Below are positions 49,464 to 54,099 of a stretch of DNA of 64,000 nucleotides, in pieces. The notes beneath the pieces are model-generated. The model saw nothing but the letters and a program-made list of their open reading frames with translations, made no database searches and had not been told where the DNA came from. Positions within the stretch are counted from its first letter, which is position 1. Each line of letters starts with the position of its first letter. Position numbers and translations under genes: made by a program. The DNA is from Natronolimnohabitans innermongolicus JCM 12255. GTDB taxonomy: Archaea; Halobacteriota; Halobacteria; Halobacteriales; Natrialbaceae. The DNA lies in NCBI RefSeq assembly GCF_000337215.1, contig NZ_AOHZ01000041.1:1-64000 (forward strand). Reading direction: 5' to 3'.

Positions 49464-49792
49464 GAACTTGTTCTCTGAACATACATTATCGCATGACTTT
49501 AAATTTTGGAATTTTTTCACGCGGAAGGGGCCGGGCCAATACCACATGAGTGTGACGGCCATCGTCGGTGAATTCATCGCTTCGAATCGATGAATGTACG
49601 ATTCCGAGGCGGTGGAGCAGACGAGTCGGAAAAACACGAAATTATCGGCTATCGACGACGGCGCTCGAGCGGTAATTCGTTCCTTCTCGACGGTAAATTG
49701 GCTGCTGATAGCCGTACCGGGGCGACGACCGATCGTCGCAAAAGACGTGACCATCCACAACCATTATATTCTCGTAAACTGCTGCTAGAATC
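49464..49792. other. 329-base divergent region before bioB
   Basis: Holds the promoter of the acidic-protein gene on the left (A/T-rich, 49480-49515) and the bioB promoter/operator on the right. The 200 bases between (49530-49750) show no gene: frames there lack coding bias. Confidence 0.5.
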
Positions 49793-49805
49793 GTGGTTTA
49801 CGAGA
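49763..49805 (+). promoter_or_regulatory. bioB promoter with BirA-type operator spanning the start codon
   Basis: TATA box ATTATAT (49763-49769) lies 23 bases before the GTG start (49793), predicting a leaderless mRNA. A perfect dyad, TCTCGTAAAC (49770-49779) and GTTTACGAGA (49796-49805), follows at once. Its core, GTAAAC...GTTTAC with a 14-base gap between 9-base arms, matches the BirA operator pattern TTGTAAACC-N14-15-GGTTTACAA. The right arm lies within codons 2-5 of bioB. Confidence 0.8.
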
Positions 49806-50905
49806 CGAACAACGAGACGGTCGACGACGCGCTCGAGCGGGTGCTCGCCGGCGAGCGACTCGATCGAACCGACGGGCTCGCGCTGATGGCGCAGCCAGTC
49901 GAGGCGCTGGCGGACGCCGGTGCGGTCGTTCGCGATCGCTTCGGCGACGGCACGGTCGACGCCTGCTCGATCGTCAACGCGAAGGCGGGCAACTGCGCCG
50001 AGGACTGTGGCTTCTGTGCCCAGTCGGTCCACTTCGATACCGGCATCGACACCTACGGCTTCCTCGGCCCCGAGAAGGTCCTCGAGGCCGCAAAGCGAGC
50101 CGAACGAGACGGCGCCCAGCGCTTTGGCATCGTCGTCGCCGAGAAGGGCGTCTCGAAGGACCGTCGTCCGGAGGAGTGGAACGAGGTGATCGAGGCGATC
50201 CGCCTCGTCCGCGAGGAGTGCGACCTCGAGGTCGACGCCTCGCTCGGCATTCTGACCGAGGAGGAGGCCGCGATCCTCGCCGACGAGGGGATCAACCACT
50301 ACAATCACAACATCGAAACCTCCCCGCGATACTTCCCCGAGATCGTCAACACCCACAGCTTCGAGGACCGCGTGAAGACCCTCGAAGTGGCCAAGGAGGC
50401 CGGGATGGATCTCTGTGCCGGCGTCATCCTCGGGATGGGCGAGACGCCGACCGACCGGGTCGACGCCGCCATCGCGCTGCAGGACATCGGCATCTCCTCG
50501 CTCCCGGTGAACGTCTTGAACCCCGTCGAGGGAACGCCGCTGTACGACCGGGGCGCCGACATCACGACCGAGGAGATCGTCAAGACGGTCGCCGTCTACA
50601 AACTGCTCCACCCCGAGTCGCGAGTGCGACTCACCGGCGGCCGCGAGGCGAATCTGGAACCTGACGAACAGCACCTGCCCCTCGAGGCCGGCGCGGACGG
50701 CATTCTCACCGGCGACTACCTCACGACGGAGGGCCAGTCGCCCGGCGAGGACATCGAGATCATCGAGCGCGCGGGCCTCGAGCCGAATCGGGAGACAAAC
50801 GAGTTCGATCCCGAGCAGGTCAAGACTCGACACGACGCGTCGACGGAGTCCGCGACCGACGCGGAGACGGCGGCGAGCACTGGTGCGGAACCGAGCGACG
50901 ACTGA
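49793..50905 (+). CDS. bioB: Biotin synthase
   Basis: 370 residues, radical-SAM enzyme inserting sulfur into dethiobiotin. The FeS motif is CAEDCGFC (C68, C72, C75). The early block is DACSIVNAKAGNCAED. YNHNIETSPRYFPEIVNTHSFEDR, GMGETPTDRVD and NVLNPVEGTPL are conserved BioB segments, and GGRE with the Arg ligand of the auxiliary cluster is seen at LTGGREANL. The C-terminal 45 residues are an acidic extension. GTG at 49793 fits the promoter. First gene of bioB-bioU-bioF-bioD. Confidence 0.95.
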   Translation: MVYETNNETVDDALERVLAGERLDRTDGLALMAQPVEALADAGAVVRDRFGDGTVDACSIVNAKAGNCAEDCGFCAQSVHFDTGIDTYGFLGPEKVLEAAKRAERDGAQRFGIVVAEKGVSKDRRPEEWNEVIEAIRLVREECDLEVDASLGILTEEEAAILADEGINHYNHNIETSPRYFPEIVNTHSFEDRVKTLEVAKEAGMDLCAGVILGMGETPTDRVDAAIALQDIGISSLPVNVLNPVEGTPLYDRGADITTEEIVKTVAVYKLLHPESRVRLTGGREANLEPDEQHLPLEAGADGILTGDYLTTEGQSPGEDIEIIERAGLEPNRETNEFDPEQVKTRHDASTESATDAETAASTGAEPSDD

Positions 50906-50944: not shown

Positions 50945-52024
50945 ATGGACGAAATCACGTTTGCGGTACTCGGAACCGGCGGTATCGGCCGACGAGCACT
51001 CGAGGTCAGCCAGCACAAAGACCACCTGACGCCGGTCGCGGCCTGCGATCGTCACGGCACCGCGATCGATTTCGACGGGTTCGACGTCGACGAACTGCTC
51101 GCGGCGACCGAGGGCAACATCGACAGCGAGCCGCGAGACGACGGGGTCGCAACCGACGGCGGCACGGGCGCCACGCCAGCCGACGGCGAGGGTGGCGTCA
51201 AGCAACACGGTGAGGATAGGGGCGTCGTGGCCTCCGAACAGGCCCGATCCAGCGCGGATCCGATCCAGGATATCATCGACCACGGTGACGGCATCGACGC
51301 CGTCTTGCTCGCGCTCCCGAACTACGAGCACGATTTCATCCCGCGGACCGCAGACCGGTTCGTCGAGGGCGGCTACTCGGGCGTCATGATCGACGTGCTC
51401 AAACGCTCGCGCGTGATCGACATGTTGGACGACCGAAGCGACGCGTTCGAGGACGCCGGCATCACGTTCGTCTGCGGCGCCGGCGCGACGCCCGGCCTCC
51501 TGACCGGCGCGGCCGCTCTCGCCGCCCAGTCGTTCGTCGAGGTGGAGTCCGTCGACATCTGGTGGGGCGTCGGCCTCAAGTCGGGCTACGAGGACAACCG
51601 CGGCACCGTCCGCGAAGACATCGCCCACCTCCCTGAGTACGACATCGAGACGGCCCGCGACCTCTCCGAGGCGGAGATCGAAGCGATAATCGACGACCAC
51701 GACGGCGTCATCGAGTTCGAAGACATGGAACACGCCGACGACGTCCTCCTCGAGCGTGCGGGGATCTGTGCCGCCGAAGACGTCTCTGTCGGCGGCATCT
51801 TAGACGTCCACAGCGACGAGAAACCGACGACCACGACGGTCAGCGTGACGGGACGGACGTTCGACGGCGAGACGGCGACGAACACGTTCCAGTTGGGCGA
51901 CGAAACGAGCATGGAAGCCAACGTCAACGGACCGGCGCTCGGCTACCTGCGCGCCGGCGTCCGCCGGAACCGCGCCGGCGAGTACGGCGTCGTCGGCCCC
52001 GCGGAACTGATGCCGGGGTTCTGA
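50945..52024 (+). CDS. bioU: BioU-like NAD-dependent protein, probable DAPA synthase
   Basis: 359 residues. The Rossmann fold starts ITFAVLGTGGIGRRALE (GxGxxG, residues 10-15). ALPNYEHDFIPRTADRFVEGGYSG and VMIDVLKRSRVIDML follow, then a saccharopine/homoserine-dehydrogenase-like second domain (FVCGAGATPGLLTGAAALAAQ, VDIWWGVGLKSGYEDNRG). Lys153 in VLKR falls, after discounting a low-complexity acidic/polar insert of about 30 residues (62-103), near the Lys124 that cyanobacterial BioU sacrifices as amino donor to make 7,8-diaminononanoate. It sits where bioA would be expected, between bioB and bioF. Assignment rests on context plus fold, not on a database match. Confidence 0.75.
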   Translation: MDEITFAVLGTGGIGRRALEVSQHKDHLTPVAACDRHGTAIDFDGFDVDELLAATEGNIDSEPRDDGVATDGGTGATPADGEGGVKQHGEDRGVVASEQARSSADPIQDIIDHGDGIDAVLLALPNYEHDFIPRTADRFVEGGYSGVMIDVLKRSRVIDMLDDRSDAFEDAGITFVCGAGATPGLLTGAAALAAQSFVEVESVDIWWGVGLKSGYEDNRGTVREDIAHLPEYDIETARDLSEAEIEAIIDDHDGVIEFEDMEHADDVLLERAGICAAEDVSVGGILDVHSDEKPTTTTVSVTGRTFDGETATNTFQLGDETSMEANVNGPALGYLRAGVRRNRAGEYGVVGPAELMPGF

Positions 52025-52144
52025 GTCACAGCCGTGAGCCGTCTCCGCCCCTCGTTCGTCTCCGATCGAGCCGAGCGGCCGCCATCGAGACCCATCGTCG
52101 AGGCCGGTCCGCCGAATCAGAATCGTGAGAGTGAAACCACGTCG

Positions 52145-53371
52145 ATGACTCCGTACAGTCGAATGGACGATCGCGGGTTCGACCTCGAGGGTCGGCTACA
52201 CGACCTCGAGGATGCCGATCTGAAACGGACGCTGTCGCCCGTCGACCGGGTCGCCGAGCGAGGCTACTTCGCGGAGCCCTCGGGCGGCGAACTGCCGGTT
52301 CTCGACTCGACGGAAGCGCTGGTGTTCGCCTCGAACAACTACCTGGGGCTGACGAACGACCAGCGGATCGAGGACGCCGCCAGACAGGCCGCCGCGACGG
52401 TCGGAACGGGCGCGGGTGCGAGTCGACTCGTCACCGGTGACACGATGGTCCACCAGGACCTAGAGCGCCAGCTCGCCGAGACGAAAGGTACCGAACGCGC
52501 CCTCGCGTTCTCGTCGGGCTACGCCGCGAACGTCGGCACGATCACGGCGCTCGATCCCGACGTGATCTTCTCCGACGAGTACAACCACGCGAGCATCATC
52601 GACGGCTGTCGACTGACCGACGCCGAGACGATCGTTTACGACCACTGCGACGCGACGAGCTTGCGGACGAAACTCGAGCGTCGAGCCGCGTTCGACGACG
52701 CGAACGAGGAGTCGTGGCTGATCGTCACCGACTCCGTCTTCAGCATGGACGGAACCGTCGCCCCGATGGCGGACATCTGCGACGCCGCGGAGGCGTTCGG
52801 CGCCTGGGTGATGGCCGACGAGGCCCACGCGACCGGCCTCTACGCCGACGGCGGCGGCGTCGTGCAGGCCGAGGGACTCGGCGACCGCGTCGATATCCAG
52901 ATGGGAACGCTCTCGAAGGCGCTCGCGAGCCAGGGCGGCTACGTCGCCGGCAGCTCGGATCTGATCGAGTGCCTGCTGAACGACGCCCGGCCGTTCGTCT
53001 TCTCGACTGGTCTCGCGCCGCCGGCCGCCGCCGCCGCGAGCGAGGCGCTCCACGTCGCCCGCCACACCGACGTCCGCGAACGGCTCTGGGAGAACGTCGC
53101 TCACCTCCGTGACGGCCTCGAGTCGATGGGCTTTACGGTTCTCGGCGACTCGCAGATCCTTCCCGTCCTCGTCGGCGACCGCGAGGACGCGCTGGCACTC
53201 GCCGACGAACTGCAGGACCGCGGCGTCATCGCGCCCGCGATCCGGCCCCCGACGGTTCCCGAACGCACGAGTCGCATCCGGATCGTCCCGATCGCCTCCC
53301 ACGAACAGGGAGACATCGTGAAGTGTCTCGAGGCGTTCCGGGGCGCCGGCGAGGAGATCGGATTGCTATGA
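52145..53371 (+). CDS. bioF: 8-amino-7-oxononanoate synthase
   Basis: 408 residues, PLP enzyme condensing pimeloyl-thioester with alanine. FASNNYLGLTNDQRI, GTGAGASRLVTGDTMVHQDLE, FSDEYNHASIIDGCRL, DSVFSMDGTVAPMADI, MADEAHATGLYADGG and the Lys-bearing TLSKALASQGGYVAG are the canonical blocks. Starts at 52034 (GTG), 52145 and 52163 are in frame; the conserved part begins near RGFDLEGRL, so 52145 or 52163 is likely. Overlaps bioD by 4 bases (ATGA). Confidence 0.93.
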   Translation: MTPYSRMDDRGFDLEGRLHDLEDADLKRTLSPVDRVAERGYFAEPSGGELPVLDSTEALVFASNNYLGLTNDQRIEDAARQAAATVGTGAGASRLVTGDTMVHQDLERQLAETKGTERALAFSSGYAANVGTITALDPDVIFSDEYNHASIIDGCRLTDAETIVYDHCDATSLRTKLERRAAFDDANEESWLIVTDSVFSMDGTVAPMADICDAAEAFGAWVMADEAHATGLYADGGGVVQAEGLGDRVDIQMGTLSKALASQGGYVAGSSDLIECLLNDARPFVFSTGLAPPAAAAASEALHVARHTDVRERLWENVAHLRDGLESMGFTVLGDSQILPVLVGDREDALALADELQDRGVIAPAIRPPTVPERTSRIRIVPIASHEQGDIVKCLEAFRGAGEEIGLL

Positions 53372-54099
53372 CCGGCGTCGAGACCGAGTCCGAGCAGGAC
53401 CTCTCCGGGGCGACGCTGGAACGGCCGATCGCGGTCGTCGGCACCGACACCGACGTCGGCAAGACCGTCGTTACGGCGGGGATCACGCGCGGGCTGCGAC
53501 GGGCCGGTGCCGACGCGCGGGCGATCAAGCCCGCACAGACCGGCCACCCGCCGGACGACGACGCCAGCTTCGTCGCCGACGCCTGCGGCGACGCCGACGC
53601 GGCGACCTGTCCGCGATACCTCGAGCCCGCACTCGCCCCGCGCGTCGCGGCCGAGGAGGCGGGAGCGCAACTCGCCTACGACGACGTGCTGACGGCCTGC
53701 GAGGAGGCTATCGCCGAGACGCCGGTGCCGATCGTCGAGGGAATCGGCGGCCTTCGCGTCCCGCTGGCCGGCGACCGCGAGGTGATCGACCTCGTCGCCG
53801 ACCTCGAGGCGACCGCCGTCGTCGTCACGCGCTCGGGACTGGGGACGCTCAACCACAGCGCACTCTCGGTCGACGCCCTCGAGCACCGCGGCGTCGACGT
53901 CGCGGGCGTCGTCTGCAACGAGTACGCGGGCGCGACGGTCGCCGAGCGGACGAACCCCGACGAACTCGAGCGGATGACCGGTCACGTCGTGGAGACGATC
54001 CCGCCGCTTTCGGGCGAGTCGCCGGCGGCGATGGCTGCGGGCGTCGTCGACGCGCTTCCGACGAGGTTTTTCGAAACGCTCGTCGACGACGACCGATAG
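53368..54099 (+). CDS. bioD: Dethiobiotin synthetase
   Basis: 243 residues; closes the ureido ring of dethiobiotin using CO2 and ATP. The P-loop is VVGTDTDVGKTVVTAG. AIKPAQTGHPPDD and IVEGIGGLRVPLAGDREV follow, with the conserved Thr/Glu/Gly residues for DAPA binding, and VVTRSGLGTLNHSALS closes the core. Start at 53368 lies on the bioF stop (ATGA). Its substrate DAPA must come from BioU, as no bioA is present here. Confidence 0.94.
   Translation: MTGVETESEQDLSGATLERPIAVVGTDTDVGKTVVTAGITRGLRRAGADARAIKPAQTGHPPDDDASFVADACGDADAATCPRYLEPALAPRVAAEEAGAQLAYDDVLTACEEAIAETPVPIVEGIGGLRVPLAGDREVIDLVADLEATAVVVTRSGLGTLNHSALSVDALEHRGVDVAGVVCNEYAGATVAERTNPDELERMTGHVVETIPPLSGESPAAMAAGVVDALPTRFFETLVDDDR

Follow-up and report, generated by a model that had tools for sequence, protein, structure and literature searches.

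A predicted BirA operator straddles the start codon of bioB in Natronolimnohabitans innermongolicus and other haloarchaea

The bioB locus and its promoter region

The window analyzed here is a stretch of 64,000 nucleotides from Natronolimnohabitans innermongolicus JCM 12255 (contig NZ_AOHZ01000041.1, positions 1 to 64,000 of the forward strand). It contains the biotin genes bioB, bioU, bioF and bioD on the plus strand, which presumably form one operon. The following features were assigned to the locus.

49755..49760, +, BRE-like element CCACAA, corresponding to CCnnAA at −19 to −14 from the G of the left arm in the alignment of 150 distinct bioB starts
49763..49769, +, TATA box ATTATAT, with the core TTAT at 49764-49767, 29 to 26 nt before the GTG
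49770-49779, +, left 10-bp arm TCTCGTAAAC of the dyad, a perfect complement of the right arm
49770..49772, +, outer dyad bases TCT, weakly conserved (0.17, 0.16 and 0.60 bits at −4, −3 and −2)
49773..49779, +, left operator half-site CGTAAAC, upstream and non-coding, kept as CGTnAAC at a fixed spacing
49780..49795, +, operator spacer of 16 nt, whose final 3 nt are the GTG start codon of bioB
49792..49793, +, putative transcription start at a pyrimidine-purine step, leaderless, with TATA at −29 to −26
49796-49805, +, right 10-bp arm GTTTACGAGA, ending at the first base of bioB codon 5
49796..49802, +, right operator half-site GTTTACG, made up of codons 2 and 3 plus the initial base of codon 4 (Val-Tyr-Glu)
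49803..49805, +, outer dyad bases AGA within codons 4-5, conserved, though coding too
49793..50905, +, bioB (biotin synthase), GTG start, TIGR00433 with 340.6 bits against a cut-off of 225
50945..52024, +, bioU ((S)-8-amino-7-oxononanoate synthase-like), NF047886 with an E-value of 2.7e-99 and 332 bits, short of the curated cut-off (600)
52034..53371, +, bioF (8-amino-7-oxononanoate synthase-like), TIGR00858 with an E-value of 1.1e-120 and 402.7 bits against a cut-off of 426
53371..54099, +, bioD (dethiobiotin synthase), TIGR00347 with 109.1 bits against a cut-off of 83.3

The true start of bioF may lie further downstream than 52034. The operon carries bioU and lacks bioA, and the encoded BioU has an Asp/Gly-rich insertion at about residues 60-100.

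The element CCACAA upstream of the TATA box is taken by us to be a BRE. The TATA core TTAT is well conserved among 150 distinct bioB starts (T 93%, T 99%, A 87%, T 84%); in promoters anchored on the operator it occupies −10 to −7, which places it at −29 to −26 relative to the start codon. In leaderless haloarchaeal genes the TATA box precedes the start codon by about 26-29 nt, and the transcript starts at a purine that follows a pyrimidine. At bioB the TATA box was found at this distance and the purine of the GTG follows a pyrimidine, as a pyrimidine directly precedes the start codon in all 150 distinct bioB starts. The codon at 49775-49777 in the bioB frame is TAA, and the first start codon in this frame thereafter is that at 49793. 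By the geometry of its promoter the bioB transcript is most likely leaderless, beginning at the first base of the GTG, so that the right half-site itself would constitute codons 2 to 4.

Sequence and uniqueness of the dyad

The region 49770-49805 carries TCTCGTAAAC-N16-GTTTACGAGA, in which the arms are 100% complementary over 10 bp and 16 nt apart. The GTG at 49793-49795 lies between the arms and abuts the right one. The initial annotation, which placed the start codon between the arms of a perfect 10-base dyad ending in codon 5, is thus confirmed by the coordinates and the complementarity. It had also let the dyad begin at the TATA box; the two do adjoin, but the TTAT core is located just upstream of the dyad and not inside it.

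The full 10+10 pattern was matched once in the window and in none of 100 shuffled versions of it. A pattern search of the whole genome of 4.59 Mb for the core GTAAAC-N14..18-GTTTAC likewise returned a single exact match, and the same pattern read backwards returned none. Base composition predicts 0.04 N16 core matches per genome, and a chance dyad was rejected on these counts.

Conservation of the site at haloarchaeal bioB starts

A gene above the bioB family cut-off was identified in 177 of 391 genomes, a subset of which was read for start sites. The first sample comprised 191 starts (30 loci, 80 further stretches, the best 80 of 124 named genomes, and the window), and a second sample added 20, giving 211 in total. 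The motif GTnAAC-N13-nTG-GTTnAC, with N16 between the six-base cores, was present in 180 of the 191 starts and in 19 of the further 20. Hence 199 of 211 starts have GTnAAC-N13-RTG-GTTnAC, and the other 12 are near variants: all of them retain RTG-GTTnAC, with either an altered left arm (for example GACAAC in Halovenus and GTTAAT in one Natrinema lineage) or a spacer of N15. The latter was found at three starts, in genomes G382, G286 and G216 (the last also sampled as L263). Conservation of the dyad among related haloarchaea had been set as a check on the first proposal, and both position and spacing are kept across the class.

The 180 conforming starts collapse to 150 distinct 80-mers. The left arm among these is GTCAAC in 104, GTTAAC in 24 and GTAAAC in 22, and the right arm is GTTTAC in 144, GTTAAC in 3, GTTGAC in 2 and GTTCAC in 1; the third base of the half-site is therefore free. 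The start codon is GTG in 137 and ATG in 13. Since the left arm is GTCAAC in most relatives, the site is not fully symmetric.

The perfect 10-bp dyad was accordingly rejected as the form of the operator, conservation being limited to CGTnAAC and GTTnACG. The perfect arms are partly a local accident, because only C-GT-n-AAC and GTT-n-AC-G are strongly conserved among the 150 distinct starts. Of the original description the site itself stands, whereas its conserved form is CGTnAAC-N16-GTTnACG, usually with GTCAAC in the left arm.

The longer pattern GTnAAC-N13-RTG-GTTnACG, which also catches sites at bioY, was found in 204 of the 391 genomes, compared to 4 matches for the reversed control (judged by eye). 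Two genomes have two copies of bioB, each with its own start-codon operator (G230, C6 and C11; G287, C2 and C4). At one locus (L173, genome G096) bioB appears to be degraded, with weaker, fragmented matches and a tblastn value of 7.6e-9 beside the dyad, and the start-codon operator is intact.

The site upstream of bioY and at other loci

For the biotin transporter gene bioY, 91 genes were collected by the family model and unselected for the site (30 loci, 60 stretches and one gene from the N. innermongolicus genome). The site was found upstream of all 91: 84 have N16 spacing with at most one mismatch, a condition reached by 0.9% of shuffled sequences, and 7, of which six belong to one genus, have exact N15 sites. 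The bioY site of N. innermongolicus itself, GGAAACC-N14-GGTTTACGA, contains one mismatch (GGAAAC).

The distance from the 5′ end of the operator to the start codon is usually 42-43 nt at bioY, compared to 19 nt at bioB. The T-rich and then A-rich positions −31 to −26 of the bioY start fall inside the operator spacer. The predicted operator of bioY is thus placed about 23 nt further upstream than that of bioB, and the apparent TATA box lies within its spacer. These distances indicate two operator registers on what appears to be the same TATA-to-start ruler.

A further set consisted of 30 first-listed dyad loci, one per genome, chosen without regard to function. With N16 spacing, 13 of 14 dyads were located at bioB (8) or bioY (5) and one elsewhere, compared to 0 of 16 dyads with other spacings. 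Dyads with N14, N15 or N17 were thus not supported as a class of BirA sites, although some exact N15 exceptions exist. Two N16 dyads (L006 and L158) were found at neither bioB nor bioY.

At six loci (L011, L014, L015, L017, L018 and L024, near 1501) GTAAAC-N14/N15-GTTTAC was observed, and a small ribbon-helix-helix gene (MERVTLRIPKQQIEEVE...), which we take to resemble cdrS, follows about 220 nt further downstream. None of these dyads is a biotin site, and a different regulator may use them as operators. Two more loci (L004 and L005, near 1501) have N15 GTAAAC/GTTTAC dyads before another small gene that looks like ribbon-helix-helix.

The BirA protein and genomes without its HTH domain

The genome of N. 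innermongolicus encodes one BirA above the TIGR00121 cut-off. The domains HTH_11 (PF08279), BPL (PF03099) and BPL_C (PF02237) were all detected above their cut-offs, the HTH being N-terminal, and this combination of an HTH, a catalytic and a C-terminal BPL domain is that of a Group II biotin protein ligase. The alignment begins at residue 8 with E. coli BirA and at residue 16 with S. aureus BirA (PDB matches). The initial annotation had named an N-terminal HTH on BirA as a second check, and the single BirA of the genome carries one.

The model of the BirA HTH (TIGR00122) matches 384 of the 391 genomes, in all cases below its own cut-off of 70 bits, so that these are matches to the model and not individually established BirA proteins. 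A weak match or none was seen by eye in 20 genomes, all of which are without bioB; no BirA match was obtained in 15 of the 20, and bioY is present in 6. Because 15 of the 20 also lack any BirA match, the comparison was moved from bioB to bioY in the remaining five genomes, which have a BirA without HTH and retain bioY. The operator was found at bioY in none of the five (at least 3 mismatches at N16) and in every one of the 91 genomes with an HTH match; the Fisher value of 1.6e-8 overstates the independence of the data, because the five genomes represent two genera of one family.

The 15 genomes without a BirA match belong to genera g27, g28, g47 and g54, together with genome G317. The lack of matches suggests a loss of biotin use in several lineages.

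Alternatively, the site could serve the biotin genes but be bound by a separate, dedicated HTH repressor and not by BirA. HTH regulators are numerous in haloarchaeal genomes, and the HTH of the N. innermongolicus BirA also weakly matches HTH_20, HTH_24 and HTH_5. Against this, the bioY site is absent exactly where BirA has no HTH, and half-site and spacing match the BirA consensus as given in an excerpt of PMC545781. A separate repressor is therefore considered improbable.

Coding constraint on the first bioB codons

Codon usage was analyzed in 103 distinct full-length bioB genes, in which the start was located by RTG-GTTnAC and no sequence was lost. Anchoring on the motif could have hidden exceptions, but RTG-GTT is present at each of the 211 bioB starts (199 matched by the pattern and 12 judged by eye). 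Codon 2 (Val2) is GTT in 103 of 103 genes, compared to a share of 6% for GTT among the 2978 Val codons elsewhere in the same genes. Among the 89 columns that are conserved for an amino acid with four-fold degenerate codons, codon 2 is the only one without synonymous change; the next-lowest column is a Val with GTC as the preferred codon and an entropy of 0.22. Codon 3 is TAC in 97 genes, GAC in 4, AAC in 1 and CAC in 1. It varies (Tyr/Asp/Asn/His) at its first base alone, which is the free base of the half-site. Codon 5 is ACG in 35, ACT in 25, ACC in 18 and ACA in 17, and codons 5 and 6 use all or most of their synonyms. The earlier proposal that the bioB coding sequence is constrained by operator identity is well supported by the usage of Val2.

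The right arm might instead be kept merely through a conserved protein start (Met-Val-Tyr-Glu-Thr) and promoter, with the dyad as a by-product. Residues 2-5 are indeed conserved, as are the BRE and the TATA box. However, the left arm is non-coding and yet conserved at a fixed spacing, the same site is non-coding upstream of bioY, the rare GTT is invariant at codon 2 whereas codons 5 and 6 run through all or most of their synonyms, and codon 3 exchanges its amino acid as nAC only, which makes this explanation very improbable. Equally remote is a role of the inverted repeat in RNA, where a hairpin at the mRNA 5′ end would affect translation or stability: its arms pair without mismatch in the window, but they do not fully pair in most relatives because GTCAAC faces GTTTAC, the left arm would be untranscribed with a start at the GTG, and the whole bioY operator lies upstream of the putative start.

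Proposed mechanism and implications

The region 49770-49805 is thus predicted to be a BirA operator controlling bioB-bioU-bioF-bioD, with a probability of roughly 93%. The conservation across the class, the HTH-bearing BirA and the codon constraint all support the BirA-type operator over the bioB start that had been proposed from the window. In haloarchaea one short DNA stretch would then double as control site and protein code.

BirA would act as a biotin protein ligase that doubles as the biotin repressor. When biotin is plentiful, BirA with bound biotinyl-AMP would dimerize, with biotin as co-repressor, and the two half-sites, CGTnAAC and GTTnACG (six-base cores 16 nt apart), would each be occupied by one N-terminal HTH of the dimer. 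A dimer bound at bioB would lie immediately past the TATA box, on top of both the start codon and the transcription start, and RNA polymerase would thereby be blocked. The transporter gene bioY would be under the same operator with its TATA box inside the spacer. What the sequences show is the site with its conservation, its clustering at bioB and bioY, its dependence on a BirA with an HTH, and the constraint on the codons; binding, biotin as co-repressor, the transcription start and the mode of repression are inferred from them. Since the TATA box of bioB lies outside the operator core, the occlusion of TBP/TFB at this promoter, which had also been put forward, would depend on an expected wider footprint.

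A tentative extension, which we consider somewhat doubtful, is that throughout the haloarchaea a single repressor works from operators in two fixed registers, on leaderless promoters with a common TATA-to-start ruler of ~29 nt. The bioY operator would exclude TBP, whereas the bioB operator could leave TBP/TFB bound and block the polymerase. If so, a poised, quickly induced synthesis operon would exist beside a tightly shut transporter, and the price of the bioB register would be a permanent constraint at the DNA level on the first bioB codons.

Leaderless genes have no 5′ untranslated region to hold a downstream operator. For the predicted BirA operator this means that half of a bacterial-type site would have been placed within the coding sequence and retained throughout an entire archaeal class. 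With bioB and bioY as two contrasting positions for the operator of one protein, genetics could cleanly test how a repressor common to both domains of life acts on the archaeal basal transcription machinery. The site also makes a class-wide prediction of biotin regulation possible, and it contains a warning for codon recoding, since regulation should be lost if Val2 is recoded synonymously.

Comparison with known BirA systems

BirA operators in archaea are not in themselves a novelty, since BirA regulation there was predicted in 2002; the title of the study by Rodionov et al. (doi 10.1101/gr.314502) reportedly states that the BirA signal is conserved in Eubacteria and Archaea. No report of a BirA operator straddling a start codon was found in the open-licence literature searched. 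This operator goes unmentioned in the excerpts of PMC3403918 and PMC6138646, which deal with biotin genes in haloarchaea or archaea. In an excerpt of PMC10779274 bioB is described as less strongly expressed in a Haloferax mediterranei Lsm mutant, which may be an additional level of control.

S. aureus and E. coli BirA are bifunctional ligase/repressor proteins (excerpt of PMC6391492). The BirA of N. innermongolicus has the same domain order and aligns with both through the HTH and ligase domains.

The consensus TTGTAAACC-N14/15-GGTTTACAA is given for BirA operators in the excerpt of PMC545781, where it is credited to Rodionov 2002. The window site TCGTAAACT-N14-GGTTTACGA agrees with it at 15 of 18 positions and in spacing, and the fit of the GTAAAC/GTTTAC core to the BirA consensus claimed at the outset is borne out to this extent. 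The second base is C in the window site and T in the consensus. The third half-site base is free at the haloarchaeal bioB sites as it is in delta-proteobacterial sites, which include GTcAAC and GTTgAC (Table 1 of that paper), and the D. vulgaris bioB site is tabulated there at +6 from the start codon (PMC545781).

The haloarchaeal site therefore shares with bacterial BirA operators the half-site, the N14 spacing and the placement at biotin synthesis genes. It differs in being combined with an archaeal promoter (BRE/TATA) and in spanning the start codon of a gene that is probably leaderless, with its right half in the coding sequence. The parts are known, and the arrangement at the start codon appears to be a new variant.
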